57,698 bases of DNA from an uncultured Bacteroidota bacterium (GTDB lineage Bacteria > Bacteroidota > Bacteroidia > Chitinophagales > Chitinophagaceae): positions 1 through 57,698 of the forward strand of contig CAIUZK010000089.1 in NCBI GenBank assembly GCA_903903635.1. Reading direction: 5' to 3'. The position numbers and the translations under genes are program-made. Position 1 is the first letter of the stretch, and the number at the start of each line of letters is the position of its first letter. Below, in pieces: positions 4,180 through 44,955 of the stretch. Below the pieces are notes generated by a model. The model did not search any database. It was not told where the DNA came from and was given only the letters and a program-made list of their open reading frames with translations.

Positions 4180-6375
4180 ATGTCATCTTTACGTTTTCAG
4201 GCCTTAGATGCACTGGCAGCAGGCGAGGAGAAAAAAATTGAAGGTTACGGCGACAAGCGCATAACCGCAATTTTTGGTACAAATGTATTCAGCGGACGTA
4301 CTATCCGTGAATACCTGAGCGATGAGGCATATAAGAGCCTTATGAACTCAGCAAAATCAGGCCATCGTGTAGACCGCAGAATTGCCGATCAGGTAGCTGC
4401 AGGTATGAAGGCCTGGGCTGAAGGAAGAGGAGTAACCCACTTTACGCATTGGTTTCAGCCGCTTACCGGTACTACAGCCGAAAAGCATGATTCATTCTTT
4501 ACTATTAAAAGTGATGGTGCCGCTATTGAGTTGTTTGATGGCGACGCCCTGATACAGCAGGAGCCTGATGCTTCCAGCTTCCCTAACGGCGGCATCCGCG
4601 CTACTTTCGAGGCTCGCGGTTATACCGCCTGGGACCCATCTTCACCTGCATTCATCATGGAGGCCGGATCGGGCAAAACACTGTGCATCCCTACCATTTT
4701 CATAGCATACAATGGCGAGTCGCTGGATTATAAGGCGCCACTGCTGAAATCAATAGCGGCGCTGGATAAAGCTGCTGTTGATGTGTGCCATTTCTTCGAT
4801 AAGAATGTAACTAAAGTAACCGCTACCCTGGGCTGGGAACAGGAATACTTCGTAATTGACGAAGGTCTGGCCAACGCCCGCCCCGACCTGTTGATGTGCG
4901 GCCGTACCCTTTTGGGCCATAGCCCTGCAAAAGGCCAGCAGCTTGAAGACCATTATTTTGGCAGCATACCAGAGCGCGTATATGCATTCATGCAGGATTT
5001 CGAACAGGAGTCTTACAAGCTGGGTATACCATTGCGCACCAGGCACAATGAAGTAGCGCCTTCGCAGTTTGAGTGCGCTCCTATTTTCGAAGAGTGCAAT
5101 ATCGCTGTTGATCATAACACCCTGCTCATGGATGTGATGAACAAAGTGGCTAAACGCCATAAGCTGAAGGCCCTGCTTCATGAAAAGCCATTTGCAGGCA
5201 TCAACGGATCGGGTAAACACAACAACTGGAGCCTGGCTACAGATACAGGCGTTAACCTTCTTTCGCCAGGCAAAACACCACGCACCAACCTTATGTTCCT
5301 CACCTTCTTTGTGAATACAATTAAGGCGGTACATGATTATGATGATCTGTTGCGTGGCGCTATTGCATCGGCCAACAACGATCATCGTCTGGGCGCTAAC
5401 GAGGCTCCGCCAGCCATCATTTCTGTATACATAGGCAAGTTCCTGAGCGATGTACTGGATGAAGTGGAAACAAGAGTAAAAGAAAAATTCAGCGAGCAGG
5501 ATGAAGTGATCCTGAAACTGGATATACATAAGCAGATCCCTGAGTTGCTTATGGACAATACCGATCGTAACCGTACCAGCCCGTTTGCATTTACCGGCAA
5601 CAAATTCGAATTCAGGGCAGTAGGTTCAACTGCCAATTGCGCTTCGCCAATGACCGTGCTCAACACCATCATGGCCGAAACCCTGAAACAATTCAAGAAG
5701 GATGTAGATGCGCTGGTTGAGAAAGGAGATAAAAAGGAAATAGCGGTACTGCATGTGCTGAGGTCTTACATTACATCCTCAAAACGCATCAGGTTTGAAG
5801 GCGACAACTATAGCGATGAATGGGCTGAAGAAGCTAAGCGCCGCGGACTGAACAACTTCAAAACCACTCCTGAAGCGCTCGATGCATTTGTGACTGAGAA
5901 AGGCAAGCAGGTATTTTACGACAATGGCATCTACAGCAAGCGCGAACTGGAAGCCCGTCATGAAATAATGCTGGAAGACTATATTAAAAAGGTTCAGATC
6001 GAGGCGCGCATTATAGGATATCTTGCTACCAACCATATTCTGCCGGCCGCCATCAATTACCAGAATGTACTGATACAGAATGTGCGTGGCCTGAAAGAAC
6101 TGGGACTGGATAAAGACAGCTATAAAACCCAGCTCAACCTTATAGAACTGATGAGCAACCATATCCGTAACATCAACGATAACGTAGAAGCTATGCTGCA
6201 AGCCCGTAAGAAGGCCAACGATACAGCAGATATGCATAAGCGCGCATTGAAATACTGCCACGAAGTGAAACCATACTTTGACACCATCAGGTATCATTCA
6301 GATAAACTGGAGCTAATTGTAGACGACAAGCAGTGGCCTTTACCAAAGTACCGCGAACTGTTATTTATACGGTAA
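4180..6375 (+). CDS. glnN: Glutamine synthetase type III
   Basis: The 731-aa length identifies the large type III enzyme, typical of Bacteroidota, which makes glutamine from glutamate, ammonia and ATP. Visible landmarks are NEVAPSQFECAPIFEE (metal/substrate site), GSGKHNNWSL (ATP-site loop), NEAPPAIISVYIG and FEFRAVGSTANCASP near the active site. A helical C-terminal extension ends in WPLPKYRELLFI. Type III enzymes act as dodecamers in the cytoplasm and are usually nitrogen-regulated. The gene is alone, with its own promoter region and a hairpin 3' of it, so it appears monocistronic. Confidence 0.95.
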   Translation: MSSLRFQALDALAAGEEKKIEGYGDKRITAIFGTNVFSGRTIREYLSDEAYKSLMNSAKSGHRVDRRIADQVAAGMKAWAEGRGVTHFTHWFQPLTGTTAEKHDSFFTIKSDGAAIELFDGDALIQQEPDASSFPNGGIRATFEARGYTAWDPSSPAFIMEAGSGKTLCIPTIFIAYNGESLDYKAPLLKSIAALDKAAVDVCHFFDKNVTKVTATLGWEQEYFVIDEGLANARPDLLMCGRTLLGHSPAKGQQLEDHYFGSIPERVYAFMQDFEQESYKLGIPLRTRHNEVAPSQFECAPIFEECNIAVDHNTLLMDVMNKVAKRHKLKALLHEKPFAGINGSGKHNNWSLATDTGVNLLSPGKTPRTNLMFLTFFVNTIKAVHDYDDLLRGAIASANNDHRLGANEAPPAIISVYIGKFLSDVLDEVETRVKEKFSEQDEVILKLDIHKQIPELLMDNTDRNRTSPFAFTGNKFEFRAVGSTANCASPMTVLNTIMAETLKQFKKDVDALVEKGDKKEIAVLHVLRSYITSSKRIRFEGDNYSDEWAEEAKRRGLNNFKTTPEALDAFVTEKGKQVFYDNGIYSKRELEARHEIMLEDYIKKVQIEARIIGYLATNHILPAAINYQNVLIQNVRGLKELGLDKDSYKTQLNLIELMSNHIRNINDNVEAMLQARKKANDTADMHKRALKYCHEVKPYFDTIRYHSDKLELIVDDKQWPLPKYRELLFIR

Positions 6376-6410
6376 TAAGCTTTAATAAACGAATTATCAG
6401 TACAATGCCC

Positions 6411-6437
6411 CCAATCCCTCCTTGCAGGAGGGATTGG
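6411..6437 (+). terminator. Perfect 12-bp hairpin after glutamine synthetase
   Basis: Bases 6411-6422 pair perfectly with 6426-6437 around a 3-base loop. The stem is GC-rich (CCAATCCCTCCT). No T-run follows directly. It lies 36 bases after the stop and may be a terminator, an RNA-stabilising stem or a copy of a dispersed palindromic repeat. Confidence 0.5.
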
Positions 6438-6564
6438 CAATTTAGGGAGCGGTTTTATTCCCCGATTTTTGGCATGGCCAGGGTAATGCAAAGCAGGTAG
6501 GCATATGAAAAGAAACAGAAGCATAATGCCCCTTTGGGCCCAATTTTCATAAATCGGGGAAATA

Positions 6565-6594
6565 TTGTTTTATAGAATAACAAAAGTATTTTTG
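6565..6594 (+). promoter_or_regulatory. Promoter of the MBOAT/SGNH/GT-C locus
   Basis: TTG at 6565-6567 and TATTTTTG at 6587-6594 are separated by 19 bases, matching the Bacteroidota sigma-ABfr pattern. It lies just before the first MBOAT start at 6603 and is the only clear promoter before the eight-gene run. Confidence 0.5.
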
Positions 6595-6602
6595 GGTAAC
6601 TG

Positions 6603-8015
6603 ATGGCTTTTAACTCGCTGCACTTCATCGTATTTTTTGTACTGGTAACCCTTCTGTACTTCAGGCTTAAGAAACAGGAAGGGCGCATAGGGTTATTGCT
6701 TATTGCAAGTTGTTATTTTTATATGTCATTTATACCAGAGTATATCCTAATACTCGGTTCAATGGTAATTGTTGATTATTTTGCTGGTATACTGATAGAT
6801 AGAAACCAGGGCTTTTCCCGTAGGTTCTGGCTCATTACAAGTATCGTTGCAAACCTGGGGGTGCTGGCTGTATTTAAGTACTACAATTTTTTCATAGGCA
6901 ACATCCATGATGGGTTGCTACTGTTCGGCAAATCGGTTTCGCTTCCGGTGCTCAAAATAGCATTACCTATCGGCCTATCATTCCACACCTTCCAGGCTAT
7001 GAGTTATACTATAGAGGTATACAGGGGTAACCAGGTAGCGGAGAAAAGGTTCCCGGTATATGCGCTCTATGTTATGTTCTACCCCCAGTTGGTAGCAGGC
7101 CCTATTGAGCGTCCCCAGAATATGCTGGCCCAGTATAAGGAATTCAGGGAGTACAATTGGGACAATATCAAAGAAGGCCTATCCCGCATGGTATGGGGCT
7201 TTTTAAAAAAGGCAGTGATTGCCGACAGGCTTGCCATGGTAGTCGACTGGTCTTTCTCACATACCCATGAAAGCTCATCAACAGTTTTGCTCATCGGGGC
7301 AATGTGTTATTACTTCCAGGTGTATTGTGATTTTTCAGGTTATTCAGATTTGGCACTTGGCGCAGCCAAAGTGATGAATATTAAGCTCATTGAAAATTTC
7401 AAGCAACCATTTTTCAGCAAAAGCGTTTCGGAATTCTGGAGGCGATGGCACATCTCCCTTTACTCCTGGTTTTATGATTATGTATACAACAGTATCTTCT
7501 TTTCATTAAGGAACCTCGGGAAAATTGCATTGGTTGCCAGTGTGCTTATTACCTTTTCGTTGAGCGGATTATGGCATGGCGCCGCCTGGCATTTTATATT
7601 CTTCGGCTTACTGCAGGCGGTGGTGCTTATCTATGAATTCTCTACAAGGGACCTGCGCAGAAAGTTATTCAGCAGCATGCCGGGGTGGGCCAGTGTTTTT
7701 CTCAGCATAGGCATTACATTCTGCTTTTTCATTTTAGCACAGGTATTCTTTCGTGCCGAAAGCATGGGTAAAGCATGGGATTACCTTACCGGGATATTCG
7801 CATTAAGGGGTGGCTCCGGCAATTTTGGAATGGACATCGCAGAACTCATCTTTGCCGCTTTGCTTATATTAGTATTGCTTGTCCGTGAAAATAAGCTACC
7901 TGGTTTTAAGATAAGTAATGACACTAGCTTCTTTGCCTACTTTACTTTCATGGTTGTGATTTGCTATTTCTTCGGGGTATTTGCTGAAAATCAATTTATC
8001 TACTTTCAATTCTGA
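6603..8015 (+). CDS. MBOAT-family membrane O-acyltransferase (AlgI-like), divergent copy
   Basis: The 470-aa polytopic protein belongs to the MBOAT/AlgI family, which moves acyl groups across the membrane onto polysaccharide hydroxyls. Landmarks are FKYYNFF, LPIGLSFHTFQAMSYTIEVY, FYPQLVAGPIERP, CDFSGYSDLALG, EFWRRWHISL and SGLWHGAAW, with the presumed catalytic histidine at residue 325. Unlike the paralogue at 9138 it lacks the usual YIPLGGNR loop after the RWHISL motif; the sequence there is YDYVYNSIFF. It is paired with an SGNH-like gene 3 bases downstream, the usual AlgI plus AlgJ/X arrangement. Confidence 0.9.
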   Translation: MAFNSLHFIVFFVLVTLLYFRLKKQEGRIGLLLIASCYFYMSFIPEYILILGSMVIVDYFAGILIDRNQGFSRRFWLITSIVANLGVLAVFKYYNFFIGNIHDGLLLFGKSVSLPVLKIALPIGLSFHTFQAMSYTIEVYRGNQVAEKRFPVYALYVMFYPQLVAGPIERPQNMLAQYKEFREYNWDNIKEGLSRMVWGFLKKAVIADRLAMVVDWSFSHTHESSSTVLLIGAMCYYFQVYCDFSGYSDLALGAAKVMNIKLIENFKQPFFSKSVSEFWRRWHISLYSWFYDYVYNSIFFSLRNLGKIALVASVLITFSLSGLWHGAAWHFIFFGLLQAVVLIYEFSTRDLRRKLFSSMPGWASVFLSIGITFCFFILAQVFFRAESMGKAWDYLTGIFALRGGSGNFGMDIAELIFAALLILVLLVRENKLPGFKISNDTSFFAYFTFMVVICYFFGVFAENQFIYFQF

Positions 8016-8018
8016 TCT

Positions 8019-9110
8019 ATGGCGAAAAAGATTGCGAGGGATTTTACGATATTGTTCTGTTTTGCAGTGCTCTGCCTGTCAACTTCGCGCACTACCATGC
8101 AATTCCTGTTTGATATAAGAGACGTTGATAAGTGGTATGGATTTTTTCAGGGCAACCACGGCGACCTGGCCAGCATGTCACACCTCGACTACGTGCATAA
8201 GTTCTACGATCCGAAAGCGTATTTTTTGAAACGCACCAGTTACAAGGGGCCTAAAAACACAGTTTTGTTTATTCATGGCGATAGTAATATCTGGAAGATC
8301 AGTGATAGCGTTTTTGCCGGGGTTTGCGATTATAAATTTATTGGATGGTCTAACCCATTTAAATATAAGCTCGACAAGGCGAAAAGAAATGTATTAATAA
8401 TAGAAGTTGGGGAAAGGCTTTTAAGAGAGTATTACAACACTACAGAAATATTGGATGAATTCACAGACACTTCAATGTTGAAGAAAAACGCGATGATAGG
8501 CCCAGCAACATGGCAGGGCAATAAATATTCAGGTTCGATGGTGCCATGGTTTAACCTGGATGACCTGTTCAATAAAAATATCAATCAGAATATCGCAGGC
8601 AACCTGTTTAGTTATAAATTCATGACACCGATGTTTGGTTACAAAGCAGCCATCAATTATTATTTATTCAACCGGGCATCGGGTGATGTGGTTATCTCAG
8701 ATGACAGGCAATACCTGTTTTACAAACAAACAATTGGCCCATCCTACAAAGGGAGTTCCTTTTCCTATCTTGGGCCAGATGAAATAACTCATCTGATAAC
8801 CAACTTCAATACAATATATGATTATTATAAATACAGCGGATTCGACCAGATCTACCTTTCTATTGTACCAAATACCGTTACCATCCTTCAGCCAAAAGGG
8901 TATAATAACCTGATACCGCTAATTCAGCATGATCCTCGCCTTAAGATACCTGTAATTGATATTTACTCTGTTTTCAAGGATTCAAAGAAAGAATATTTCC
9001 AACATGGGGATACCCATTGGAACATTGATGGAAAGCAAAAATGGATAGATATGGTCAACGACACGCTCCTGGAATCTGATAAACGGGAAAGGCAGGCAGG
9101 CAATAAGTAA
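8019..9110 (+). CDS. SGNH/AlgX-like acyltransferase partner, membrane-anchored
   Basis: The 363-aa protein has one N-terminal membrane or signal segment (about residues 8-25) and then an extracytoplasmic SGNH-hydrolase-like domain. The nucleophile motif is HGDS (residues 86-89) and the Asp-x-His pair is GDTHWN (D331, H333). In alginate and similar systems such proteins take the acyl group exported by the MBOAT partner and place it on the glycan. It starts 3 bases after the MBOAT stop, so the two are translationally close. The substrate is not known. The paralogue at 10536 is recognisably related throughout. Confidence 0.8.
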   Translation: MAKKIARDFTILFCFAVLCLSTSRTTMQFLFDIRDVDKWYGFFQGNHGDLASMSHLDYVHKFYDPKAYFLKRTSYKGPKNTVLFIHGDSNIWKISDSVFAGVCDYKFIGWSNPFKYKLDKAKRNVLIIEVGERLLREYYNTTEILDEFTDTSMLKKNAMIGPATWQGNKYSGSMVPWFNLDDLFNKNINQNIAGNLFSYKFMTPMFGYKAAINYYLFNRASGDVVISDDRQYLFYKQTIGPSYKGSSFSYLGPDEITHLITNFNTIYDYYKYSGFDQIYLSIVPNTVTILQPKGYNNLIPLIQHDPRLKIPVIDIYSVFKDSKKEYFQHGDTHWNIDGKQKWIDMVNDTLLESDKRERQAGNK

Positions 9111-9137
9111 TCAGATTCAAATAATATCTTTGTTGAA

Positions 9138-10532
9138 ATGACATTTATTTCCCTTCAGTTTATCGTCTTTTTCATGGTGGTAACACTTCTGTTTTTCCGG
9201 TTGGGAAATCAGAAAGGGCGGATATGGTTATTGCTTATTGCCAGTTGCTATTTTTATATGTCCTTTATACAGGAGTATATTCTTATACTTGGGGGCACAA
9301 TAGTCATCGATTATTTCGCTGGCATACAAATAGAAAAGAGCGAAGGCAGTTCTCGCAGATTTTGGCTCATACTCAGTATTATTGCCAATATTGGCACACT
9401 TGCGGTATTTAAGTACTACAATTTCTTTATAGGCAATATTCATACAGGCTTGCAGTTTTTGGGCAAACCGATTTCATTGCCCCTGCTGAAAATGGCGCTG
9501 CCCCTGGGACTTTCGTTTCATACATTCCAGGCATTGAGCTATACAATAGAAGTATACAGGCGCAAACAAACCGCTGAAAGGAATTTTGTGGTTTATGCAC
9601 TGTATGTGATGTTTTACCCCCAATTGGTTGCCGGCCCTATAGAACGGCCTCAGAATATACTGCCCCAGTTAAAGGTCTTCAGGCAGTATGACTGGAACAA
9701 TGTAAAAGACGGACTGGCAAGAATGCTCTGGGGCTTTTTCAAAAAAGCAGTTATTGCCGACAGGCTGGCCATGGTGGTAGACCGCACCTTTCAACACTAT
9801 CCTGAAAGCTCGTCCGTAGCACTTGCGATTGGGGCTGTGTTTTATTCCTTCCAGATCTATTGCGACTTCTCCGGTTATTCGGATATAGCCCTTGGGGCCG
9901 CAAAAGTGATGAATATCCAATTGATGGAGAATTTTAACCAACCCTACTTGTCACGCGGCTTATCTGAATTCTGGACCCGGTGGCATATTTCGTTATCCAG
10001 TTGGTTTCGCGATTATCTATACATTCCGCTAGGCGGCAACAGACACGGTGAAACAAGAAGAAAACTGAATATACTGATCGTGTTTCTGCTTAGCGGCCTC
10101 TGGCATGGCGCCAACTGGACATTTATCATTTGGGGGTTGCTTCATGGCCTTTTTGTATTACTGCTTACTTTCAGTATTAAAAAAGGGAAGGAAAGCCAAA
10201 CAGGATTTGCATCGCTGCTGCAGGTACTGTTCAATTTTATGCTGGTTACCCTGCTGTGGATATTTTTCCGGGCTGAGAACACTGGAATAGCATGGGATTA
10301 TATAAAGACGATATTTTCATTCAGAGGTGGTTCGAATTACATAGCCATAAACAGCGCCGAATTCATTTTCTCGCTGGCGGCCATAGGCACTATGTTATGG
10401 CGCGAGTATTACTTGCCCACGCACTTTATCAGGAACAATAAGTGGTTTTATATTTATGTAACTTTCATGGTGGTTGCTTGCTATTATCTGGGTGTATTTG
10501 CTGAAAATCAATTTATATACTTCCAATTTTAA
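9138..10532 (+). CDS. MBOAT-family membrane O-acyltransferase (AlgI-like), canonical copy
   Basis: This 464-aa paralogue of the protein at 6603 shares nearly every landmark: FKYYNFF, LPLGLSFHTFQALSYTIEVY, YPQLVAGPIERP, CDFSGYSDIALG, EFWTRWHISL, and SGLWHGANW with the presumed catalytic histidine at residue 323. It keeps the canonical YIPLGGNR loop that the first copy has lost. Both proteins end with the same GVFAENQFIYFQF tail, which shows a recent tandem duplication. It is followed 3 bases later by its own SGNH partner. Confidence 0.92.
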   Translation: MTFISLQFIVFFMVVTLLFFRLGNQKGRIWLLLIASCYFYMSFIQEYILILGGTIVIDYFAGIQIEKSEGSSRRFWLILSIIANIGTLAVFKYYNFFIGNIHTGLQFLGKPISLPLLKMALPLGLSFHTFQALSYTIEVYRRKQTAERNFVVYALYVMFYPQLVAGPIERPQNILPQLKVFRQYDWNNVKDGLARMLWGFFKKAVIADRLAMVVDRTFQHYPESSSVALAIGAVFYSFQIYCDFSGYSDIALGAAKVMNIQLMENFNQPYLSRGLSEFWTRWHISLSSWFRDYLYIPLGGNRHGETRRKLNILIVFLLSGLWHGANWTFIIWGLLHGLFVLLLTFSIKKGKESQTGFASLLQVLFNFMLVTLLWIFFRAENTGIAWDYIKTIFSFRGGSNYIAINSAEFIFSLAAIGTMLWREYYLPTHFIRNNKWFYIYVTFMVVACYYLGVFAENQFIYFQF

Positions 10533-10535
10533 GAC

Positions 10536-11600
10536 ATGCTAAAAAAGATACTCAGCTACATATTCATCATTATTGGTTTGTTCTTTCTCTGGGCATCTAC
10601 CTCACGCAATGCCATGCAATATATATCCCAAAAAAGAGACAATAATGAATGGTGGGGATCTTATCAATGCCTTAAGGGAGACCTTGTCAGCATGGCTTAT
10701 CTCGATATTGTAAAAAGGTTCAACCCACTTCCTGAAAATGAAAATGCCAACCGAGCTGCCTACAATGTACCTAAATCAACGATCCTTTACCTACATGGCG
10801 ACAGCTATTCCCGGCATCTCAGTGATTCGGATTTTGCAGGTGTACGTAAATATATTCCGATAGACAGGAATCATGGCATCAATTATCATCTGGATACCGC
10901 CAATAAAAACATCCTCTTAATAGAGATATCAGAAAGATATTTCCGGCTCTATTTCTCCGGTCTTCAGATTCTGGATGAAGTATGTGACTCTGTGATTAAA
11001 AAGAAGACGATTGCATGGAGCCAGGATAATGAATACCCAGCTATCACAGAAGCCTCCATTCTACCCAAAATAGGAGTAAGCGACCTGTTCAATAAATATA
11101 TCAATCAGAACCTGCAATGCAATCTCTTCAATTATAACTTCATGATGCCGCTGTTTGAATCCAAGGCTGCATTGAATTATTATGTGTTCAACCGTGCATC
11201 GGGTGACGTAGTTATTTCGAACGATCACAATTACCTGTTTTTAAAAGAAACTGTAACAAAAACCGGTATCAACAGTTCCTTTTCACCTTTACAGGATGAT
11301 GAAATTAATAAACTGGTACATAACCTGAACACAGCTTATGACCATTATAAATCCACTGGCTTTAAAGAGGTCTATCTGAGCATTATACCCAATTCAGCAA
11401 CAATTTTACAACCTGCTGGTTACAATAATCTGATACCACTACTCCAGTCAAATCCCGGACTGAAGATAAAGATCATTGATATTTACACGGTTTTTAAGAA
11501 GACATATGAATCAGTTTATCTGCCCGGTGATACGCACTGGAATAATAAAGGCAGGCAGTTGTGGCTGAAAACAGTGAATGAAAAGTTGTTACAGCTTTAA
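10536..11600 (+). CDS. SGNH/AlgX-like acyltransferase partner, second copy
   Basis: The 354-aa protein is a paralogue of the one at 8019, with the same architecture: an N-terminal membrane segment, HGDS nucleophile motif (Ser90), the shared FNRASGDVVISND stretch, and a C-terminal GDTHWN (D332, H334) completing the SGNH-type triad. It probably acylates an extracytoplasmic glycan together with the MBOAT at 9138. The MBOAT-SGNH pair was duplicated as a unit, since both copies keep the same order and 3-base gap. Confidence 0.8.
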   Translation: MLKKILSYIFIIIGLFFLWASTSRNAMQYISQKRDNNEWWGSYQCLKGDLVSMAYLDIVKRFNPLPENENANRAAYNVPKSTILYLHGDSYSRHLSDSDFAGVRKYIPIDRNHGINYHLDTANKNILLIEISERYFRLYFSGLQILDEVCDSVIKKKTIAWSQDNEYPAITEASILPKIGVSDLFNKYINQNLQCNLFNYNFMMPLFESKAALNYYVFNRASGDVVISNDHNYLFLKETVTKTGINSSFSPLQDDEINKLVHNLNTAYDHYKSTGFKEVYLSIIPNSATILQPAGYNNLIPLLQSNPGLKIKIIDIYTVFKKTYESVYLPGDTHWNNKGRQLWLKTVNEKLLQL

Positions 11601-11651
11601 TTCAGAATTACCGGTATTACATTTACTACTAACAATACTTATCAAATAAAA

Positions 11652-13337
11652 ATGGCCCAGTTGCTCACAAATATTTTTCAGAATACAAATAACCGGCTTA
11701 GGTTGCTCCAGGTATTTGGTCTCTTCTGGCTGATCACATTTTTGCTTTACCTGCCTGCTGCCAAATCGGGAATGGTGGGTGATTTCCCCTATTATGTAAA
11801 CCTGATAAAACAACAGACACTTTGGGAATACATCAATCCTAAGAACTCGCTGGTGCTCTACCAAACGATGGAACTTACCATGTATGTGCTGTACAAATTA
11901 TTTGGTCTGCATCCGTGGCCATGGCATTTGTTTTACGTGAGCCTGCATGCTGTCAACGGGCTCTTGCTGTTTAGTTTTTTCAGCAACCTGCTTAAGGACT
12001 CTGGTGTAAAAAACGGCGCAATTCTTTCCTTCATTTCTGTTTGCCTGTTTATTATATGCCCCCATGCATCTGAAGCTGTTGTCTGGAAGCCTGCAAACCA
12101 TTTCCTGCTTGTGCCTGTACTTATGTTCCTCATATTGGTTCTGGTACAGCAATACCTGAAAAATCAGAAACCGGTTTATGCCGTTATTTCATGGCTGCTG
12201 TTTTTTTATTCCAGTTTTTCGCTTGAGTTTTTTTACCTGATGCCCTGGCTGGTATTGATGCTGCTTGTCTATTACCGCATAGCAGCAGGAACAGATAAAA
12301 TCATTTTCAGAAAATCATTACTGTGGTTTTTTGTGCCGCTGGTATTATTGTTTGTCGTGCATCTTTGCCTTCTGCGATTGCAGAGCAACACTTTTGTATC
12401 GCATTACGGTCATTTCGACAAATTGCCTGTATTATATTACCTGAACAAACCGCTGAAATATGTATTCCATATCATATTTTTTGGCAGGTTTTTCCATCAT
12501 GAAACGCGCATGCATATTTACGAAATATGCGAGTCCCTCACTGCCGTAATTATTTTTTATGGTGTCTGTATCCTACTCTGGGCTTTTGTTTTGCTTCGTT
12601 TAAAGGAGGCCGCACCGCAACTCAAGGCCTTAGCCATTTGTGCCGCATTCTCCTTGCTCTGCTATCTTTTTCTCTCAGCACTCATATTCTCCGATCAGCT
12701 ACTGGTTTCGCTCGACCGTTATACCTACCTGGCCAATGGATTTGCCTACCTTACCCTTGTTTTGCTTATCAATTTTATTCCTTACCGTAGTATATTTTAC
12801 CTTATCACTTTCAGTTATGGCCTGGTAAACATTTATGCAACATTGAAAATCAACAAATACTGGAAACAATCAGCCAACATTATCAGCAACCTGATAACCA
12901 ACATTCCCGATCCGGGCAATAAAACCATACTCCTCCTAAACTTACCGGATGACCTGAGGGGTGTTCCGATGATAGCTGCACAACCTGAAGGGCGTTTTAA
13001 AATTATGCAAAACGAGCTTACCCCTCACCCGCTCAGAAACAATATGTATGATGTCTCGGCCTACAATATGGATGCCGCAACCGACGGAGCTCATGTTATG
13101 GTCATTAATGACAGTATGCTGCATGTTACCCTTAACCAGTGGGGTACATGGTGGTTGTATGGCTTCCTGGGAGCGACCAGTTATACCAATGAGGATTATA
13201 AGCTTAATATGATTGATGAAGGCCACTGGTATGAATTAACACTGAAACACCCGGTTAATCAATACTTATTGCTTTACCAGGTGGGCGACAAATGGAAGAC
13301 CGTAGATTGGGACAAGAAGAATGTGGATCAGTATTAA
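11652..13337 (+). CDS. GT-C-like polytopic membrane protein, tandem paralogue 1 of 4
   Basis: The 561-aa protein has about ten or more membrane segments and a soluble C-terminal domain of about 150 residues. It resembles the GT-C fold of PMT/TMTC-type glycosyltransferases: an acidic residue in the first outer loop (SGMVGDF, D44), CPHASEAVVW in place of the TMTC HP-x-x-TEAV motif, SLEFFYLMPW, and LDRYTYLANGF in place of ERYLYLPS. The C-terminal domain starts at DPGNKTILLLNLP and ends DKKNVDQY. Members of this fold usually use lipid-linked sugars, but activity is inference. It begins 51 bases after the SGNH gene. Confidence 0.65.
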   Translation: MAQLLTNIFQNTNNRLRLLQVFGLFWLITFLLYLPAAKSGMVGDFPYYVNLIKQQTLWEYINPKNSLVLYQTMELTMYVLYKLFGLHPWPWHLFYVSLHAVNGLLLFSFFSNLLKDSGVKNGAILSFISVCLFIICPHASEAVVWKPANHFLLVPVLMFLILVLVQQYLKNQKPVYAVISWLLFFYSSFSLEFFYLMPWLVLMLLVYYRIAAGTDKIIFRKSLLWFFVPLVLLFVVHLCLLRLQSNTFVSHYGHFDKLPVLYYLNKPLKYVFHIIFFGRFFHHETRMHIYEICESLTAVIIFYGVCILLWAFVLLRLKEAAPQLKALAICAAFSLLCYLFLSALIFSDQLLVSLDRYTYLANGFAYLTLVLLINFIPYRSIFYLITFSYGLVNIYATLKINKYWKQSANIISNLITNIPDPGNKTILLLNLPDDLRGVPMIAAQPEGRFKIMQNELTPHPLRNNMYDVSAYNMDAATDGAHVMVINDSMLHVTLNQWGTWWLYGFLGATSYTNEDYKLNMIDEGHWYELTLKHPVNQYLLLYQVGDKWKTVDWDKKNVDQY

Positions 13338-13361
13338 TCCTTAACCGCCCATGCACTACAT

Positions 13362-15080
13362 TTGTTTCAGTACAATAATCCCAATGCTGTTTTGACAAGA
13401 AGCCCAGATAATATCAGTAACTATAAAGACTACCAGAAAGCACTTCTGGTATTTGTGGTTTATTGGATTGCGCTTTTTGTGCTCTACCTGCCGGCAGCAA
13501 ATGCGGGCAGAGTGGGCGACTTCCCTGGATGGGTAAATTTCCTGAACAGCAACAACTTTACTGACTACATCAACAGGAAAGGTTCGGGCATACCCAGTAT
13601 GTACCAGTTTACCCAGATTATTACTTATTTATTTTACAGACTTTTTGGCGCCAATGCATGGTTGTGGCATGTGTTGTATATATCGCTGCAAGCCATAAAT
13701 GCGGTATTGCTTTTTGTATTTTTCACACGTCTATTTTCAGGCTCATCCGTTAAAAACCCCGGTATTGTTGCTTTTTCGGGGGCATTATTGTTTTGCCTTA
13801 CTCCATACATATCTGAGGTTGTAGTTTGGGAACCTTCCTTTCATTATTTACTCGGCCTTTTGCTTATGCTTGTGGTAATGATCTGTGCACAGAATTTTCT
13901 GCTGAACCGTAAGAAGAACTATATATGGATCGGGGGAATTGTATTTTTCCTTTCTTCGTACTCATTAGAAGTGTTTTATCTAACGCCAGCTTTTGTTCTC
14001 ACCCTGGGTATTTACTACTATCTGGCATTGAGCATCAGTAAAAAGACATTGAGGGACCTGGTTCTGTATTTTACCATCCCACAGGCACTCATTTTTGTAC
14101 TGCATATTGTACTGCTGCGAGTAATCTACCATTCCGGCATTGCGCATGTTGGCACAGTGGCTATTCATTTTGGCGCAGTTAATTTGTCGAAATCTTTAAA
14201 ATACCTGTTTCATATAGTTTTTCTGGGCAGGTTTTTCAGCCTGGATGTGCGGGCCAAAGTTTACCACTTTTGTTCATCGTCTATTGGGCTTTATGGATTC
14301 TATGGATTTGCGTTGCTATTAGTAACCTATCTGACTTATAGGTACAAGCAGATGGCTATTCATTTAAAAGCCAATATCCTGTTGTTGCTTTGGGCGGCAT
14401 TATGCATTGGCCTTATTCTCCCTCTTTGGTTTCCCGAAACAGGCTTAGTGATTTACGACCGGTACACCTATGTTGCCGATGCATTTATTTTTATGTGCAT
14501 TGCCTTGTTCATTAATAATTTATTTAGCCGGTATTTGTGCCTGGGTATTCTGGCAATTTATGCGCTAATAAATATCCGGTATACCCATAAGGTAAATGCT
14601 TACTGGCAGCAATCTGCGCATATAGTCAACCGGCTGGTTGAGACATTCCCAAATGACAAGTCGAAAAAAGTACTCCTGCTAAACATACCCGAATGCCTTG
14701 ATGGTGTGCAGATGATAGGTACAAGGGATGATGGCGAGTTCAGAATGATGTACAATGCCCTAATGCCAGACAAAATAAACAATACCGTTTATGATGTGGA
14801 AGCATATAATATGAACAGTACCAGCGACGGGGCTCATGTAATAGTAGTAAATGACAGCACCATGAAGGTAGTATTGAATCAATGGGGAACCTGCTGGTGG
14901 TATTATGGCTATGGCGCCACGAGTTATGAAAATGCAGATTATAAAGTTGAAATGCGTGATCAGGGGCATTGGTACGACCTCATTTTGAAACATTCTGCCG
15001 ACAATTACCTTTTATTATTTAGCACAGGTGACAAGTGGCAGATAGTGGATTGGAGCAAAAAGAATGTTGACCAATATTGA
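13362..15080 (+). CDS. GT-C-like polytopic membrane protein, tandem paralogue 2 of 4
   Basis: This 572-aa paralogue has the same layout: LYLPAANAGRVGDF in the first loop (D53), HVLYISLQAINAVLLF, TPYISEVVVWEPSFHYL, SLEVFYLTP, YDRYTYVADAF, then the soluble tail with NIPECLDGVQMIGT, AYNMNSTSDGAHV and NQWGTCWWYYG. The start appears to be a TTG at 13362; no in-frame ATG lies nearby. The gap to the previous gene is only 24 bases, and its last residues (KKNVDQY) match those of paralogue 1, so the two derive from a tandem duplication. Confidence 0.65.
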   Translation: MFQYNNPNAVLTRSPDNISNYKDYQKALLVFVVYWIALFVLYLPAANAGRVGDFPGWVNFLNSNNFTDYINRKGSGIPSMYQFTQIITYLFYRLFGANAWLWHVLYISLQAINAVLLFVFFTRLFSGSSVKNPGIVAFSGALLFCLTPYISEVVVWEPSFHYLLGLLLMLVVMICAQNFLLNRKKNYIWIGGIVFFLSSYSLEVFYLTPAFVLTLGIYYYLALSISKKTLRDLVLYFTIPQALIFVLHIVLLRVIYHSGIAHVGTVAIHFGAVNLSKSLKYLFHIVFLGRFFSLDVRAKVYHFCSSSIGLYGFYGFALLLVTYLTYRYKQMAIHLKANILLLLWAALCIGLILPLWFPETGLVIYDRYTYVADAFIFMCIALFINNLFSRYLCLGILAIYALINIRYTHKVNAYWQQSAHIVNRLVETFPNDKSKKVLLLNIPECLDGVQMIGTRDDGEFRMMYNALMPDKINNTVYDVEAYNMNSTSDGAHVIVVNDSTMKVVLNQWGTCWWYYGYGATSYENADYKVEMRDQGHWYDLILKHSADNYLLLFSTGDKWQIVDWSKKNVDQY

Positions 15081-15108
15081 AGTATATTTGTTTCATAAGT
15101 AGTATTCA

Positions 15109-16806
15109 TTGACCAGCACAGCTATAACCGAAAATAAAAAAATATCATTTTTACAAGGCAACAGGAATGCCCTGGTGTTAATTGTATTATGGCTGGTCAC
15201 TTTCCTGCTTTATCTGCCTGCAGCAAAAGCCGGATGGGTAATAGATTCTGCCGGTTGGCTGAATAATATCAGGAACTTATCATTTCTGAACTACATCAAT
15301 AATTCGCAATCAGGCATACCCAGCCTTTACCAGTTCACACAGCTCACTACCTGGATATTTTATAAAGTATTTAATGCTAATCCATATGCCTGGCACACAC
15401 TGATGGTTACTATGCATGCCATTAATGCCTTCCTGTTCTTCATTATTTTCAAAAAGGTGCTTTCAGATTCCGGGGTAGAAAATGGTTTCAGCATCTCTCT
15501 TACCGGTGTTTTATTGTACACTGTTTGTCCGCACATATCAGAGGTTATTGTTTGGGAGGCAGCCTACCATTACCTGCAGGGTTTCATGCTCATACTTCTG
15601 ATCCTTTACTGGGTTCAGAAATATCAGAATGACCAACAGATAAAATATGCATGGCTGGCCGGAATAACCTATTTGTGTGCTACCTACTCACTTGAGATTT
15701 TTTACCTCACACCATGGTTTGTTATAACTATGGCATTGTATTACCGCTTTGCTTTGGGTCGCGACCAGTTAGTTTTCAAGCAAATAATCCAGCGTTTTTT
15801 TATACCCCAGATCGTTATGTTCCTGATGCATATTGTAGTGCTTAAGGGAGTATACGGCTGGTTTTTCGCACATATCGGACAGAATATTTTACAGCCATTC
15901 ACAAGCTACATCTGTAAACCCCCCAGATACATTTTTCATATCATTTTCTTTGGCAGGTTCTTTCCACTCGACCTGCGCAGGCAGATCTATCTGATCATTG
16001 GATCCAACGCCGGACTGATTGCTTTTTACAACATCTTTATCCTGCTCTGTTGCTATATCGTTGCTAACTTCCGGAAGATGACGATGAAAGCCCGCTCGGC
16101 TGTATTGTTGTTTGCCTGGATCATTATCTCTCAGGCAATAATTATGCCACTGGCCTTCCCCGATATGTTGCTGGTTTATTTCGACCGCTACACCTATTTC
16201 ATGGATGCTTTTGTATACATGCTGCTGGCAGTGTTGGCAAGTTTCATAGGTATCAGTGCGCTAAGGGTCGCTTTAATTGCAGCCTATGGCCTGGCTAATA
16301 TATTTTTCACATCGCGCATTAACCTTTACTGGAAACACTCTGCATACATCAACAACAGGCTGCTGAAAAACTTCCCTGATCCCGGCAACAAAACTGTTAT
16401 CCTGCTCAACCTGCCACAAAACATGAACGGCATTCCCATGATAGGTGCGGAGAAAGAAGGGCAGTTCCAGATGATGTATAAATTGTTTGTAAACAAAGAC
16501 CTTAAAAATAAGATTTACGATGTGGTGTCCTATAATATGTCTTCGCAGGAAGATGGCGCCCATGTGTGGGTGCACAACGACAGCATGCTGAGAGTGACGC
16601 TCAACCAATGGGGCACGTGGTGGTGGTACCAGGCCCAGGGCGCTATCAGCTACGAAACAGAAGATTATAAACTGAACATGATGGACATGGGCCATTGGTA
16701 TGACCTGAAATTAAAACACCCTCCGGGCCAATACCTGATCTTGTTTCAGCAGGGCGACCAGTGGAAAACTGTAAACATGAAAAGAAGGGCTGAAGAACAA
16801 TATTAA
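15109..16806 (+). CDS. GT-C-like polytopic membrane protein, tandem paralogue 3 of 4
   Basis: The 565-aa product shows the family features: LYLPAAKAGWVID in the first loop (D46), CPHISEVIVWEAAYHYL, YSLEIFYLTPWFV, FDRYTYFMDAF, then the soluble tail DPGNKTVILLNLP, NMNGIPMIGA, DGAHVWVHND and NQWGTWWWYQ. The start is a TTG at 15109, 28 bases after the preceding stop. Conservation is spread across both the membrane part and the tail, so all four copies seem to be under selection rather than decaying. Confidence 0.65.
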   Translation: MTSTAITENKKISFLQGNRNALVLIVLWLVTFLLYLPAAKAGWVIDSAGWLNNIRNLSFLNYINNSQSGIPSLYQFTQLTTWIFYKVFNANPYAWHTLMVTMHAINAFLFFIIFKKVLSDSGVENGFSISLTGVLLYTVCPHISEVIVWEAAYHYLQGFMLILLILYWVQKYQNDQQIKYAWLAGITYLCATYSLEIFYLTPWFVITMALYYRFALGRDQLVFKQIIQRFFIPQIVMFLMHIVVLKGVYGWFFAHIGQNILQPFTSYICKPPRYIFHIIFFGRFFPLDLRRQIYLIIGSNAGLIAFYNIFILLCCYIVANFRKMTMKARSAVLLFAWIIISQAIIMPLAFPDMLLVYFDRYTYFMDAFVYMLLAVLASFIGISALRVALIAAYGLANIFFTSRINLYWKHSAYINNRLLKNFPDPGNKTVILLNLPQNMNGIPMIGAEKEGQFQMMYKLFVNKDLKNKIYDVVSYNMSSQEDGAHVWVHNDSMLRVTLNQWGTWWWYQAQGAISYETEDYKLNMMDMGHWYDLKLKHPPGQYLILFQQGDQWKTVNMKRRAEEQY

Positions 16807-16840
16807 CCAAAACCATGTACCATTAAATTGAATAAATGAA

Positions 16841-18523
16841 ATGAGCGAAACAGGCACATCATGGATAAAACGGGGTGAGCAGCTTTGGTTATTCCTTGCC
16901 TTCTGGCTGCTTACATTCGTCATGTACTTTCCTGCGGCAAGAGCAGGCTGGGTGATAGATGGGGTTGGGTTTCTATACAATCTCAGGCATCAGTCATTCT
17001 GGGATTTCATCAACCGTACCAATTCTGCCGACCAGAGTTTTTATCAATTGTTCACGCTGCATTATTATTTGTTCTACAAGTTGTGGGGATTTAATGTGTG
17101 GCTCTGGAGTCTGTTGTATATTACGGTGCAGGCCATAAATTCACTCCTGTTATTCCAGCTTTGCCGCAACATTTTTTATGATTCCGGGGTAAAGAGATAT
17201 ATACTCATACCTGTTATAGGCGTGCTCCTGTTCTCTGTATCACCTCACATTTCCGAGATCATTATCTGCAGGGCCTATTTTCATTATTTACTCAGTTTTA
17301 TGTTCATTCTGCTTACCTTGCTATGGGTACAAAAATACCAGCATGAGCAGCGCATAAAGTACCTTATCGGCTCCTCTATTCTTTTTATTCTTTCTACCAT
17401 CACCTTAGAGATCTTCTACCTGATACCATTCTTTGTGCTAACCCTGGCTTTGTATTACAGATACGCACTCAACTTTGATAATAAGGTTTTCAGAAAGACA
17501 TTGCTTTATGTTTTCCTGCCGCAGTTTATATTGCTTGGCCTTTACTTTGTCGCATTACTGCTTACTTTCAAACATTTTAAACCTCATAAAATTGAATTGA
17601 ATCAGTCGGCAGTCGACTATTTATCCAAGCTCCCAAAATACATTTTCCATATTGTTTTTCTGGGCAGATATTTTTCTCAGAACGCCAAAAAAGTGGTCTA
17701 TGCGTTTTGCGAATCGTGGCCTGCAATAATATTGGTATACGGACTCATCATTACAGCATTTGTTCTTATTATGGCCCGGATCAGGAAAACTACCAACGAC
17801 CGCAAACCTGTCTGGCTGTTGTTTTCGTGGGTAGTTCTTACACTTGGATTCTTATTACCCCTTGGTTTCCCGGGACCTGAATTGCTGGTTTTTTATGACC
17901 GCTATACCTATTTTGCCGATGCCTTTATCTATATTTTACTGGCCCTGATTATCTCGAGATTTGTTACCAATAAGTATGTGGCTATTCTCCTCTTTTGTAT
18001 CTATGTTGATCTCAACCTTTACTTCACTATAGAAGTAAACACATCATGGATTGAATCGAATGTAATCAATACCAATCTGCTCAGAAACTTACCTGATCCG
18101 GGAAATAAGACAGTACTGCTGCTGAATATACCTGAGAATATGAATGGCGCCCCAATGATAGGAACGGCACCTGAAGGCGCATTCAAAATGATGCGCGAGG
18201 TGTATACCGATACCATTATAAACAACAAGATTTACGATGTAGCTTCCTACAACATGACCGCCGAGTATAACGGGGCCCATGTTACGGTGCTTAATGACAG
18301 TGTGCTTAAAGTGGTGCTCAACCACACAGGCACCTGGTGGTGGTATGATGGCCATGGCGCTGTGAGCTACGAAACACCCGATTACAAAGTGGATATGAAA
18401 ACCGTAGGCATGAGGTATGACATTACCCTCAAACATCCTGCTGATAGCTATCTGCTGCTATACAGTGTGGGCGACAAATGGAAAGAGGTGAATATGAATC
18501 TGAAAAATAAACAGCAGGATTAA
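16841..18523 (+). CDS. GT-C-like polytopic membrane protein, tandem paralogue 4 of 4
   Basis: The 560-aa last copy starts at an ATG. It keeps the first-loop acidic residue (AGWVID, D40), SPHISEIIICRAYFHYL (Trp changed to Cys at the VVW position), TLEIFYLIP, YDRYTYFADAF and the tail DPGNKTVLLLNIP, NMNGAPMIGT, NHTGTWWWYDG. It differs most in the ISE-loop and tail, which may reflect a different donor or acceptor. Its stop lies 21 bases from the end of the convergent arsenic operon. No terminator hairpin was found between them. Confidence 0.65.
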   Translation: MSETGTSWIKRGEQLWLFLAFWLLTFVMYFPAARAGWVIDGVGFLYNLRHQSFWDFINRTNSADQSFYQLFTLHYYLFYKLWGFNVWLWSLLYITVQAINSLLLFQLCRNIFYDSGVKRYILIPVIGVLLFSVSPHISEIIICRAYFHYLLSFMFILLTLLWVQKYQHEQRIKYLIGSSILFILSTITLEIFYLIPFFVLTLALYYRYALNFDNKVFRKTLLYVFLPQFILLGLYFVALLLTFKHFKPHKIELNQSAVDYLSKLPKYIFHIVFLGRYFSQNAKKVVYAFCESWPAIILVYGLIITAFVLIMARIRKTTNDRKPVWLLFSWVVLTLGFLLPLGFPGPELLVFYDRYTYFADAFIYILLALIISRFVTNKYVAILLFCIYVDLNLYFTIEVNTSWIESNVINTNLLRNLPDPGNKTVLLLNIPENMNGAPMIGTAPEGAFKMMREVYTDTIINNKIYDVASYNMTAEYNGAHVTVLNDSVLKVVLNHTGTWWWYDGHGAVSYETPDYKVDMKTVGMRYDITLKHPADSYLLLYSVGDKWKEVNMNLKNKQQD

Positions 18524-18544
18524 TAGCTCATGACAGGAGATCTG

Positions 18545-18925
18545 TTAATCCAACAGTTCTTTCACCTTATCCCCTATCAGATCCCTTACCTTTCTGAAAT
18601 CAGCCTCATCCATATCTCTTGGGTCGGGTATACTCCAGTCAATTCTATGCTTAGCCTTTACTAGCGGGCATGCATCGCCGCAACCCATTGTGACTGCATA
18701 ATCGAACACCACATCAGGCAATTCATCCAGCGATTTCGATTGGTGCACGGAGAGGTCATAGCCCAATTCTTTCATAGCATTAATTGCCTTGGGGTTTACT
18801 TTCCCTGATGGCCTGGAACCGGCACTAAAGGCCTGCACATTGCTGCCACCATATATAGCAGCAAACGCCTGAGCCATCTGGCTTCGGTTACTGTTTTCTA
18901 TACAAACAAAAAGCAGGTTTTTCAT
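18545..18925 (-). CDS. arsC: Arsenate reductase, low-molecular-weight phosphatase type (copy 1)
   Basis: The 126-aa protein has the phosphatase loop CIENSNRS (Cys8 to Arg14, CX5R) and a downstream GCGDACP segment with the two cysteines used by thioredoxin-coupled ArsC for the disulfide cascade, then the DWSIPDP loop. It reduces arsenate to arsenite for export or methylation. It is the last gene of the minus-strand ars operon, 34 bases after acr3. It belongs to a different subgroup from the ArsC encoded at 20917. Confidence 0.88.
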   Translation of the reverse strand: MKNLLFVCIENSNRSQMAQAFAAIYGGSNVQAFSAGSRPSGKVNPKAINAMKELGYDLSVHQSKSLDELPDVVFDYAVTMGCGDACPLVKAKHRIDWSIPDPRDMDEADFRKVRDLIGDKVKELLD

Positions 18926-18959
18926 TTAATATCCTTTGAAGATGTTCTCAATTAAATTT

Positions 18960-20027
18960 CTATTTCTGTTGCAAATAGTACTTATCCCTCAACCAGAAGG
19001 CTACCCGAACCAGCAAGATCAATGCAGGTACTTCTACCAACGGCCCGATTACTCCTGCAAATGCCTGGCCTGAATTTATACCAAAAACGCCGATTGCAAC
19101 AGCAATAGCCAATTCAAAATTGTTGCCTGCAGCAGTAAACGACAGAGCTGCATTTTGTGAATAATCGGCACCCAGCTTTTTTCCTATGAAGAACGTTACG
19201 AGGAACATGATCACGAAGTAAACAACCAATGGAATAGCTATTCTTATTACATCAAAGGGTATCTGCACTATAAGTTGTCCCTTAAGGCTAAACATGGCAA
19301 TGATGGTAAATAACAAAGCGATCAGGGTAATCGGGCTAACTAAAGGAATAAATTTACTTTCATACCACTCCCTGCCTTTAGCAGCTATTAATGTATACCT
19401 GCTGATAATTCCGGCCAAGAACGGAATACCCAGGTAAACAAATACACTTCTGGCTATTTGTGCAATGCTGATATCTATATCCATGCCCTTTACACCAAAG
19501 TAAGGTGGCAACACTTTTATAAACAACCATGCGAAAAAACTAAAAAACAAAACCTGGAAAATACTATTGAGCGCTACCAGCCCGGCAGCGTACTCCCTGT
19601 TGCCCTCAGCCAGTTCATTCCAAACTATGACCATGGCTATGCATCGGGCCAGCCCTATCATTATCAGCCCTACCATATATTCGGGCTTGTCACCCAGAAA
19701 TATTATGGCCAGCAGAAACATCAGGATCGGCCCTATGACCCAATTCATAATAAGCGATAGCGACAGTATTTTAATATTACTAAACACCTTGCCTAATTGC
19801 TCATACTTAACCTTAGCCAATGGCGGGTACATCATCAGTATCAATCCCACAGCAATGGGAACATTTGTTGTACCCGATTGAAAAGAATTTATAAAAGTAG
19901 TTGTCCCCGGAATGAAGTAGCCCAGAGCGATACCTATAGTCATTGCCATAAATATCCATAAAGTAAGGTATCGGTCAAGAAAGCTTAGTTTCTTGCGCTC
20001 AGCAGGAGAACAGTTATTTGCACTCAT
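18960..20027 (-). CDS. acr3: ACR3-family arsenite efflux transporter
   Basis: The 355-aa inner-membrane protein has ten predicted helices of the bile/arsenite/riboflavin transporter fold. Recognisable ACR3 features are [15 protein letters not shown], the conserved cysteine in [26 protein letters not shown], and the late acidic motif [17 protein letters not shown] followed by GPLVEVP. It extrudes arsenite formed by the two ArsC enzymes. It sits between arsM and arsC with short gaps, as a typical member of the operon. Confidence 0.95.
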
Positions 20028-20052
20028 TAATTTAGTTTTAGCAATTCAGCAA

Positions 20053-20889
20053 TTAGTTACAACATCCAGGCGCGCAGCATGCATCGGGCTTTTTAGCATA
20101 AACGGTTATGCTGTATATACCCAGGCCACTGTTATTAAATTCTGCAATTTCAGCAGGAGTAAGGTAAGCGGCCAGTATATCATCCGGTATCAGTATTTCC
20201 TTTTCCTTCTGTATAGTTATATCCTTAAAGCCAGCGGCGCTGATCATACCCATATAGTCTTCTTTTTGCACTGCGCCAGAAATGCAACCGGCATACATCT
20301 CAGCCAGACTCTGTAACTTATCGGGCAACTGGCCTACAAGCACTACATCTGAGATGCTGAAATGGCCACCATTCCTGAGCACACGCATAATTTCTTTCAG
20401 CACATTGGCTTTGTTGGGCACCAGGTTAAGTACACAGTTGCTTACAATTACATCGGCAACATTAGCAGTAATGGGCATTTTCTCAATATCACCCTGCCTG
20501 AATTCTACATTGTTGAACTTTAGTTTCTCCGCATTTGCCCTGGCTTTTTCAATCATTGCCTCAGTAAAGTCAATACCTATTACCCTGCCTTTTTCTCCGG
20601 TTATAGCCCTGACTATAAAACAATCATTACCTGCGCCGCTACCCAGGTCTACTACTGTATCCCCTGGTTTTATCTGGGCAAATTCAGTAGGCAGGCCGCA
20701 ACCTAAACCCAGGTCCGCATCTGCATTATAGCCTTCCAGTTTGGTATAATCATCACTCATGATGTTGTACACCTCGGTACTGCAACCACCTGATCCGCAA
20801 CATGAACTCATATTGGTTTGCTTATTCTGCAATGCAATCTCACTATATTTCTGTTTTACCAGATCCTTTAATTTCTGTTCTGTTTGCAT
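20053..20889 (-). CDS. arsM: Arsenite S-adenosylmethionine methyltransferase
   Basis: The 278-aa enzyme methylates trivalent arsenic using S-adenosylmethionine. The N-terminal CCGSGGC cluster (C30, C31, C36), LGLGCG (C64), the SAM-binding DLGSGAGND, SNCVLNLV (C152) and AGCISGA (C202) give the cysteines that bind arsenic; the 50-residue C152-C202 spacing matches characterised ArsM enzymes. The tail ends CCAPGCC, another probable thiol site. Methylation alongside efflux gives two detoxification routes in the same operon. Confidence 0.95.
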   Translation of the reverse strand: MQTEQKLKDLVKQKYSEIALQNKQTNMSSCCGSGGCSTEVYNIMSDDYTKLEGYNADADLGLGCGLPTEFAQIKPGDTVVDLGSGAGNDCFIVRAITGEKGRVIGIDFTEAMIEKARANAEKLKFNNVEFRQGDIEKMPITANVADVIVSNCVLNLVPNKANVLKEIMRVLRNGGHFSISDVVLVGQLPDKLQSLAEMYAGCISGAVQKEDYMGMISAAGFKDITIQKEKEILIPDDILAAYLTPAEIAEFNNSGLGIYSITVYAKKPDACCAPGCCN

Positions 20890-20916
20890 AAAATTGAATT
20901 TTAAAATTGATTTACA

Positions 20917-21363
20917 TTATATCCAATAACTTAACTGTTTTGCTTCAGCAATAAATTTCAAGACTTCTTGCTCAATTTCATCCCTTACATTTCGCGTGTT
21001 TGCCAATATCTCCTCTTTTGTCCCGTTAAGCAATGAAGGATCAGCGAATGACCATGCAAGGCGTTTTACTTTCCCAGGAAAAATAGGGCATTGCTCAGCT
21101 TTGGCGGCATCGCATACTGTTATTACCGCATCATATCTCTTTCCCTGCCTGAACACATCGAAAACACTTTGTGTGCCATGCCGGCTGATATCTATGCCTA
21201 TCTCCTTCAGAACTGTAACAACATTCTGGTTTAGCTTGCCTGGTTCCAAACCGGCGCTCCCGGCAAGAAATGAACCTTCTCCTAACTTATTCAGGAATGC
21301 TTCTGCCATCTGGCTCCTCGCAGAATTATGGATGCAAACAAATAGCACTTTGAACTGTTCCAT
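20917..21363 (-). CDS. arsC: Arsenate reductase, low-molecular-weight phosphatase type (copy 2)
   Basis: The 148-aa protein has CIHNSARSQMAEAF near the N-terminus (P-loop CX5R), AGSAGLEPG, VITVCDAAKAEQCPIFPG with two further cysteines for the thiol relay, and a WSFADPS acid loop. It is the second ArsC of the operon and differs clearly from the 126-aa one, so this is not a recent duplication. It lies 33 bases after arsR and 27 bases before arsM. Confidence 0.9.
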   Translation of the reverse strand: MEQFKVLFVCIHNSARSQMAEAFLNKLGEGSFLAGSAGLEPGKLNQNVVTVLKEIGIDISRHGTQSVFDVFRQGKRYDAVITVCDAAKAEQCPIFPGKVKRLAWSFADPSLLNGTKEEILANTRNVRDEIEQEVLKFIAEAKQLSYWI

Positions 21364-21396
21364 AAAATTGATTTTTAATTTTAATTACAAAATGTG

Positions 21397-44949: not shown

Positions 44950-44955
44950 AAAAAA

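Follow-up and report, generated by a model that had tools for sequence, protein, structure and literature searches.

What might two acyltransferase pairs and four consecutive glycosyltransferase-like genes do together in one bacterial locus? The question is raised by a 57,698-nucleotide contig of an uncultured Bacteroidota bacterium of the Chitinophagaceae (CAIUZK010000089.1, assembly GCA_903903635.1; hereafter the window), which carries at 6603-18523 a block of eight open reading frames (ORFs) on one strand in the order M1-S1-M2-S2-G1-G2-G3-G4. Here, M stands for MBOAT-family O-acyltransferases, S for their SGNH-like partners and G for predicted GT-C glycosyltransferases. Judging by sequence homology, the predicted fold, the retained motifs, and the order and orthology of the genes, we infer with moderate confidence that the octet is a periplasm-facing glycan-decoration cassette, in which GT-C enzymes using lipid-linked sugars would act together with PatA/PatB-like O-acylation. 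Acting from outside the inner membrane, the block probably attaches sugars to a surface molecule and acylates it afterwards.

Composition of the block

The features of the block are as follows, all on the plus strand.

6565-6594, +, candidate promoter of the Bacteroidota type (TTG-N19-TATTTTTG), its end 9 bases upstream of the M1 start codon; weak
6603-8015, +, M1, MBOAT O-acyltransferase, 470 aa (PF03062, 82.7 bits; WHG histidine; C-terminal FIYFQF; long branch in the M tree)
8019-9110, +, S1, SGNH-like acyltransferase partner, 363 aa (GDS and GDTHWN motifs in a 24-protein alignment; ALGX only below the cut-off)
9138-10532, +, M2, MBOAT O-acyltransferase, 464 aa (PF03062, 100.6 bits; WHG; FIYFQF)
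10536-11600, +, S2, SGNH-like acyltransferase partner, 354 aa (clusters in the tree with S genes adjoining G in other arrays)
11652-13337, +, G1, predicted GT-C glycosyltransferase, position 1, the most divergent position (fold, trees, identities)
13362-15080, +, G2, predicted GT-C glycosyltransferase, position 2 (A4 profile, trees)
15109-16806, +, G3, predicted GT-C glycosyltransferase, position 3 (A4 profile, trees)
16841-18523, +, G4, predicted GT-C glycosyltransferase, position 4, the last (A4 profile, trees)
12900-13334, 14643-15077, 16369-16803 and 18086-18520, +, predicted C-terminal beta domains of G1, G2, G3 and G4 (model pLDDT 93.5)

The gaps from M1 to G4 were 3, 27, 3, 51, 24, 28 and 34 bases, as expected from the original prediction of eight same-strand genes with short gaps. 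Its "one clear promoter" was overstated. A single Bacteroidota-style site does precede M1, but TTG-N19-TAnnTTTG, a pattern that we take to be of this promoter type, occurred twice in the window where 1.42 sites were expected by chance, and sigma-70-type matches over 6200-18900 were at chance level (40 versus 36.8 expected). G2 and G3 start, as called, with TTG. M1 and M2 are 64% identical and S1 and S2 50%. G1-G4 are membrane proteins of 560-572 residues, and the identity to G1 is 44, 44 and 41% for G2, G3 and G4, respectively. The genome holds eight MBOAT matches, two S genes, both of which are inside the block, and five full-length G genes, four in the block and one alone on contig C219. As had been claimed, no Wzx, Wzy or capsule family was seen when 39 proteins of the window were compared with Pfam, a scan that did not cover some smaller ORFs. 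Such an absence is what a decoration cassette of this kind would look like.

Linkage and age of the array

In the 35 genomes of the window's genus that were searched, S was found in 28, G in 31 and both in 26; in 22, the two were same-strand neighbours with S no more than 3 kb from G. When 73 named loci (the best of 121 relatives) were compared, M, S and G stood together on one strand in 21, each from a different isolate, whereas MBOAT density alone would give approximately 2.4. The other 52 lacked the combination; some were cut by contig ends, and L147 had its MBOAT on the opposite strand. The co-occurrence of M, S and G, whose lack would have counted against the prediction, is therefore conserved within the genus. 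Doubling of the MBOAT is not: the 21 other arrays, some of them cut by contig ends, each had one MBOAT and one to three S genes. The window is exceptional in carrying two MBOATs, which belong to two different MBOAT clades, with M1 on a long branch.

The arrays share a chromosomal slot in many cases. A type III glutamine synthetase gene (glnA) lies upstream of the block at 4180-6375 of the window and marks the slot in 14 of the 21 related arrays (12 by clustering; L099 and L133 by eye). Different genes lie upstream of the arrays in L078 and L080, and five of the 21 start at a contig end. One G was inverted in L096. Further membrane proteins were found within or beside some arrays: YfhO (PF09586, 194-196 bits) separates S from G in L099 and glnA from the array in L077, and a 579-580-aa membrane protein occupies the S-G interval in L078 and L083. 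A protein of the 4'-phosphopantetheinyl transferase family, assigned by clustering and, for the L120 member, by Pfam ACPS, is encoded near the slot in 11 loci (L054, L079, L082-L085, L087, L093, L104, L117 and L120).

In wider samples, G was found in 23 of 147 genomes of the family sample and 2 of 296 of the phylum sample, and S in 6 of 298 of the order sample, the window's own genome included in each. Synteny of the octet across Bacteroidota, which had been proposed as a check, was not borne out by the phylum count. Because the M, S and G combination was not met outside the genus and the modules occurred apart, the linkage is, as far as sampled, a feature of one genus-level group. In another family, a sulfatase-family protein, which we take to be LtaS/EptA-like, is encoded near an M-S pair (L162, 10640-12565).

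The G genes fell into a mostly ordered set. In a FastTree phylogeny of 132 G rows, 78 rows (60 from loci with M, S and G, and 18 others) grouped together, as did another 43 that came exclusively from loci lacking the combination (supports 97 and 90). A quick IQ-TREE analysis of 64 rows gave clades of 5, 16, 13 and 12 rows for window positions 1, 2, 3 and 4, respectively. The position-2 type preceded the position-3 type in all 10 arrays holding both, and the position-3 type preceded the position-4 type in 10/10 arrays (window included in both counts). In L103, the position-4 type came first. A further seven-row clade was located between positions 3 and 4 in L080 and L083 and elsewhere in L090, L093, L096 and L103. 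Position 1 of L085 and L087 was placed in a neighbouring clade, so this position is only partly orthologous. In five four-gene arrays, which were picked after the tree was seen, paralogues within a genome had a mean identity of 40.5%, same-position proteins across genomes had mean identities of 48, 63, 65 and 58% for positions 1-4, and 78 of 80 best matches were in the same position. These comparisons indicate that positions 2-4, and position 1 in part, are old, differentiated paralogues kept in order across species. The serial duplication inferred earlier thus stands as homology, but not as a recent amplification.

Motifs and relatives of the two modules

Both MBOAT proteins exceeded the PF03062 cut-off of 27 bits, and sequence search matched them to solved structures of DltB (E = 2.8e-26 for M1, with 8jem, and 1.9e-27 for M2). 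At 147 and 152 bits, however, they fall well short of the 375 bits required by the NCBIfam equivalog model for DltB of Dlt D-alanylation; DltA, DltC and DltX were absent among the eight block genes, the part of the genome searched for them. The conserved His of the MBOAT domain is present as WHG in both, and both end in FIYFQF, an FXYXXF acyl-shuttle motif. WHG and a terminal FIYFQF were found in all 26 MBOAT ORFs compared, a set that enters two places twice (L047/L087 and L060/L147, the latter not an array). In an alignment of 24 S proteins out of 41 clustered S ORFs, Asp88-Ser89 of GDS was present in 24/24 and its Gly in 23/24, and D331 and H333 of the GDTHWN sequence motif were present in 24/24 and 23/24, respectively. 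S1 and S2 reached ALGX with E = 0.0037 and 0.011, both below the Pfam cut-off. The MBOAT/SGNH partnership that had been predicted is supported by the catalytic motifs.

According to PMC12148441, PatA acetylates the tyrosine of its own C-terminal FXYXXF from acetyl-CoA, and PatB takes the acyl group from this tyrosine to acetylate peptidoglycan. Given the intact motifs and this precedent, M and S likely carry out PatA/PatB-like acyl transfer, and the group transferred would be acetyl. The resemblance to PatA/PatB and AlgI/AlgJ/AlgX is in the arrangement, an MBOAT with WHG and a C-terminal FxYxxF followed by an SGNH-type partner. The locus differs from these systems in the sub-threshold ALGX match and in that M and S adjoin GT-C genes, while alginate, cellulose and peptidoglycan genes were absent from the scanned stretch.

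G1-G4 reached no Pfam or NCBIfam cut-off, and none of the 40 G members scanned was covered by any Pfam model; PF08409 (TMTC_DUF1736) had no match among them at E ≤ 0.1. Their predicted structure is a confident GT-C membrane fold, as had been proposed for the quartet. The profile comparison with GT-C families suggested at the outset revealed a TMTC-like relationship: hhalign matched G to TMTC-type tetratricopeptide repeat (TPR) glycosyltransferases, presumably GT105, at 99.1% over 373 columns of the membrane domain, whereas two thin controls both scored <1%. G also retains the EL1 Asp, EL1 Tyr, EL3 Glu and R-x-x-Y that are common to the two groups. D44, E192, R356 and Y359 are near-invariant; D44, present in 131 of 132 rows and replaced by E in the remaining one, aligns with the first D of the TMTC DD motif, and the acidic residue of the first periplasmic loop would have the catalytic role described in PMC7801869. 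An invariant His occupies the alignment position of the RxD-motif Asp. G differs from TMTC-type enzymes in having one Asp of the DD, no PF08409 match and no TPR family in the Pfam scan of the 40 members, with a beta-rich domain at the C-terminus instead. On these alignments, G proteins appear to be remote sisters of the TMTC-type TPR glycosyltransferases. The family is a GT-C subfamily without Pfam coverage in the members scanned, with an unassigned beta domain and a genetic link to MBOAT-SGNH acylation. Five TMTC-like TPR proteins are encoded elsewhere in the same genome (L014-L018, on contigs C94, C187, C218, C214 and C103).

The beta-rich domain comprises G residues ~417-561, was modelled alone with a pLDDT of 93.5 and has nine invariant columns across 34 sequences. 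It is a candidate acceptor-binding module. A copy of its last ~75 residues extends the C-terminus of MgtE at seven distinct loci (E = 2e-7 to 3e-12), in what looks like a gene-end duplication fused in frame. The extended MgtE-type proteins (L107, L108, L119, L123, L126, L132 and L136, with L051 being the same place as L136) have 544-580 aa, L119 being cut at the locus end, and are encoded directly upstream of a solitary G, with one ORF between in L136. The MgtE identity was assigned by Pfam for L123 and the normal-length L076 and by clustering for the others (23 members, median 472 aa).

Proposed function and alternatives

In the decoration cassette that we favour, the donor of each G would probably be a monosaccharide carried on undecaprenyl phosphate and supplied by genes elsewhere in the genome, where a GtrA/DPMS-type domain occurs three times, and G would probably add this sugar to a cell-envelope acceptor on the periplasmic face of the inner membrane, with the beta domain possibly binding the acceptor. 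Variable donors for the putative glycosyltransferases are plausible, and G1-G4 may have separate, long-maintained specificities. M1 and M2 would transfer a cytoplasmic acyl group, likely acetyl, to the tyrosine in their own FIYFQF, and S1 and S2 would hand it on to hydroxyls of the same glycan.

Several observations weigh against this interpretation. Among 30 stretches around the family-sample G genes, the M, S and G combination was present only in G097, from the window's own genus, and in four of the five other S-bearing genomes of the order sample, these four being from other genera, an MBOAT-S pair stood without G in the stretch, the fifth being cut off. The genus count and the 73-locus count are not independent, since some genomes are in both (G097 is L087, for example). 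Three further MBOATs of this genome (L001, L004 and L006) terminate in FIYF[QR]F as well, so the motif marks a class rather than this locus, and sequence search found no PDB relative for S. Foldseek TM-scores for G were modest (0.31-0.44 for the 15 best matches, root-mean-square deviation 10.9-16.8 Å), and the hhalign controls were two-row alignments, which have less sensitivity than the TMTC set with its six rows. In G1-G4, the residue after D44 is F, F, S and G, respectively, so the TMTC DD motif lacks its second Asp, and E192 is missing from 2 of 60 array rows. Finally, the block contains no donor-synthesis gene or identifiable acceptor.

The nearest working analogy is from Gram-positive bacteria, where a GT-C enzyme glycosylates a polymer that is also acylated by Dlt proteins, as reviewed in PMC8035078. 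CsbB/GtcA/YfhO with DltB/DltD combine GT-C and MBOAT/SGNH functions on an extracytoplasmic polymer much as proposed here, and YfhO is present at two G arrays. However, the eight genes include no GT-A enzyme or flippase, M falls well short of the DltB equivalog score and G is not YfhO. The Bacteroidota LFG O-glycosylation locus likewise has several glycosyltransferases; according to PMC12871550, such loci begin with metG and wzx, neither of which is among the 39 scanned window proteins. A Wzx/Wzy polysaccharide locus differs in its linked flippase and polymerase, which were not seen among those proteins.

If G proteins were instead protein O-glycosyltransferases of the TMTC/PMT-like kind, adding single sugars to secreted proteins, and M and S O-acylated those glycans, only the acceptor would differ from our interpretation, so the probabilities of the two overlap. 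The nearest relatives found are TMTC-like, and human TMTCs are described as components of an O-mannosylation pathway (PMC7801869). A 2025 review (PMC12871550) states that the Bacteroidota O-glycan commonly begins with mannose and often carries acetyl, that its OTase is undiscovered and the core-glycan machinery not identified, and advises seeking homologues of eukaryotic O-mannosylation. On the other hand, G occurs in so few genomes of the phylum sample that it is not a general Bacteroidota enzyme, it lacks TPRs, and one core step would hardly account for an array of four genes. We regard protein glycosylation as unlikely, but as a serious contender.

The M-S pairs and G could also be independent modules that are chance neighbours in one slot by glnA. 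M-S without G in the stretch (four genomes), G without M-S in view (52 of 73 loci, some cut by contig ends) and the frequency of glnA beside the arrays, which suggests that the region is syntenic in general, are consistent with this. The same-strand arrangement with mostly short gaps, the different upstream neighbours in L078 and L080 and the survival of the linkage while same-position proteins diverge to 41-81% identity argue for a unit, and we consider chance neighbourhood improbable without dismissing it. That G has a GT-C fold with another job, such as acyl or lipid handling or a non-catalytic scaffold, would fit the reduction of DD to one Asp and the His at the RxD position, but not the near-invariance of D44, E192, R356 and Y359; this we hold to be very improbable.

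The decoration cassette can be extended, speculatively, to a periplasmic assembly line of fixed order, which would make a short glycan sugar by sugar without a polymerase or a block flippase. Each conserved position would contribute a single sugar, drawn from an undecaprenyl-phosphate carrier of its own; position 1, which evolves fast, and exchangeable membrane proteins (YfhO and the 579-aa one) would set the species-specific part; S paralogues fed by one MBOAT would acylate defined positions; and G would be the first member of a bacterial family, not yet catalogued, that is sister to the TMTC O-mannosyltransferases and has an acceptor-binding domain of its own. We consider this full scheme doubtful as it stands.

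Elsewhere in the window, a probable arsenic operon (18545-21735, minus strand) encodes an ArsR-type regulator, two LMWPc-family proteins, an SBF-family transporter and a methyltransferase. A HigB-type toxin gene (498-1168), with a Bacteroidota-type promoter-like site beside it at 464-493, is followed by a 118-aa ORF without a Pfam match. A probable condensin-type cluster at 43750-50026, which we take to be Wadjet/MksBEF, comprises MksE, a 1221-aa DUF3584 protein and a DUF7281 protein and is preceded by a 399-aa ORF without a Pfam match.

The original prediction holds in outline, but not as to recent amplification or breadth. Literature searches on MBOAT with GT-C, O-acetylation and glycosyltransferase, and on Flavipsychrobacter with glycosyltransferase, returned nothing, from which we claim no wider absence. 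The five TPR-bearing TMTC-like proteins of this genome and the G family are candidates for the Bacteroidota O-mannosylation step, although G is too narrowly distributed for a general enzyme. Being compact and deletable, the block lends itself to studies of how envelope glycans are decorated beyond the inner membrane in Gram-negative bacteria.
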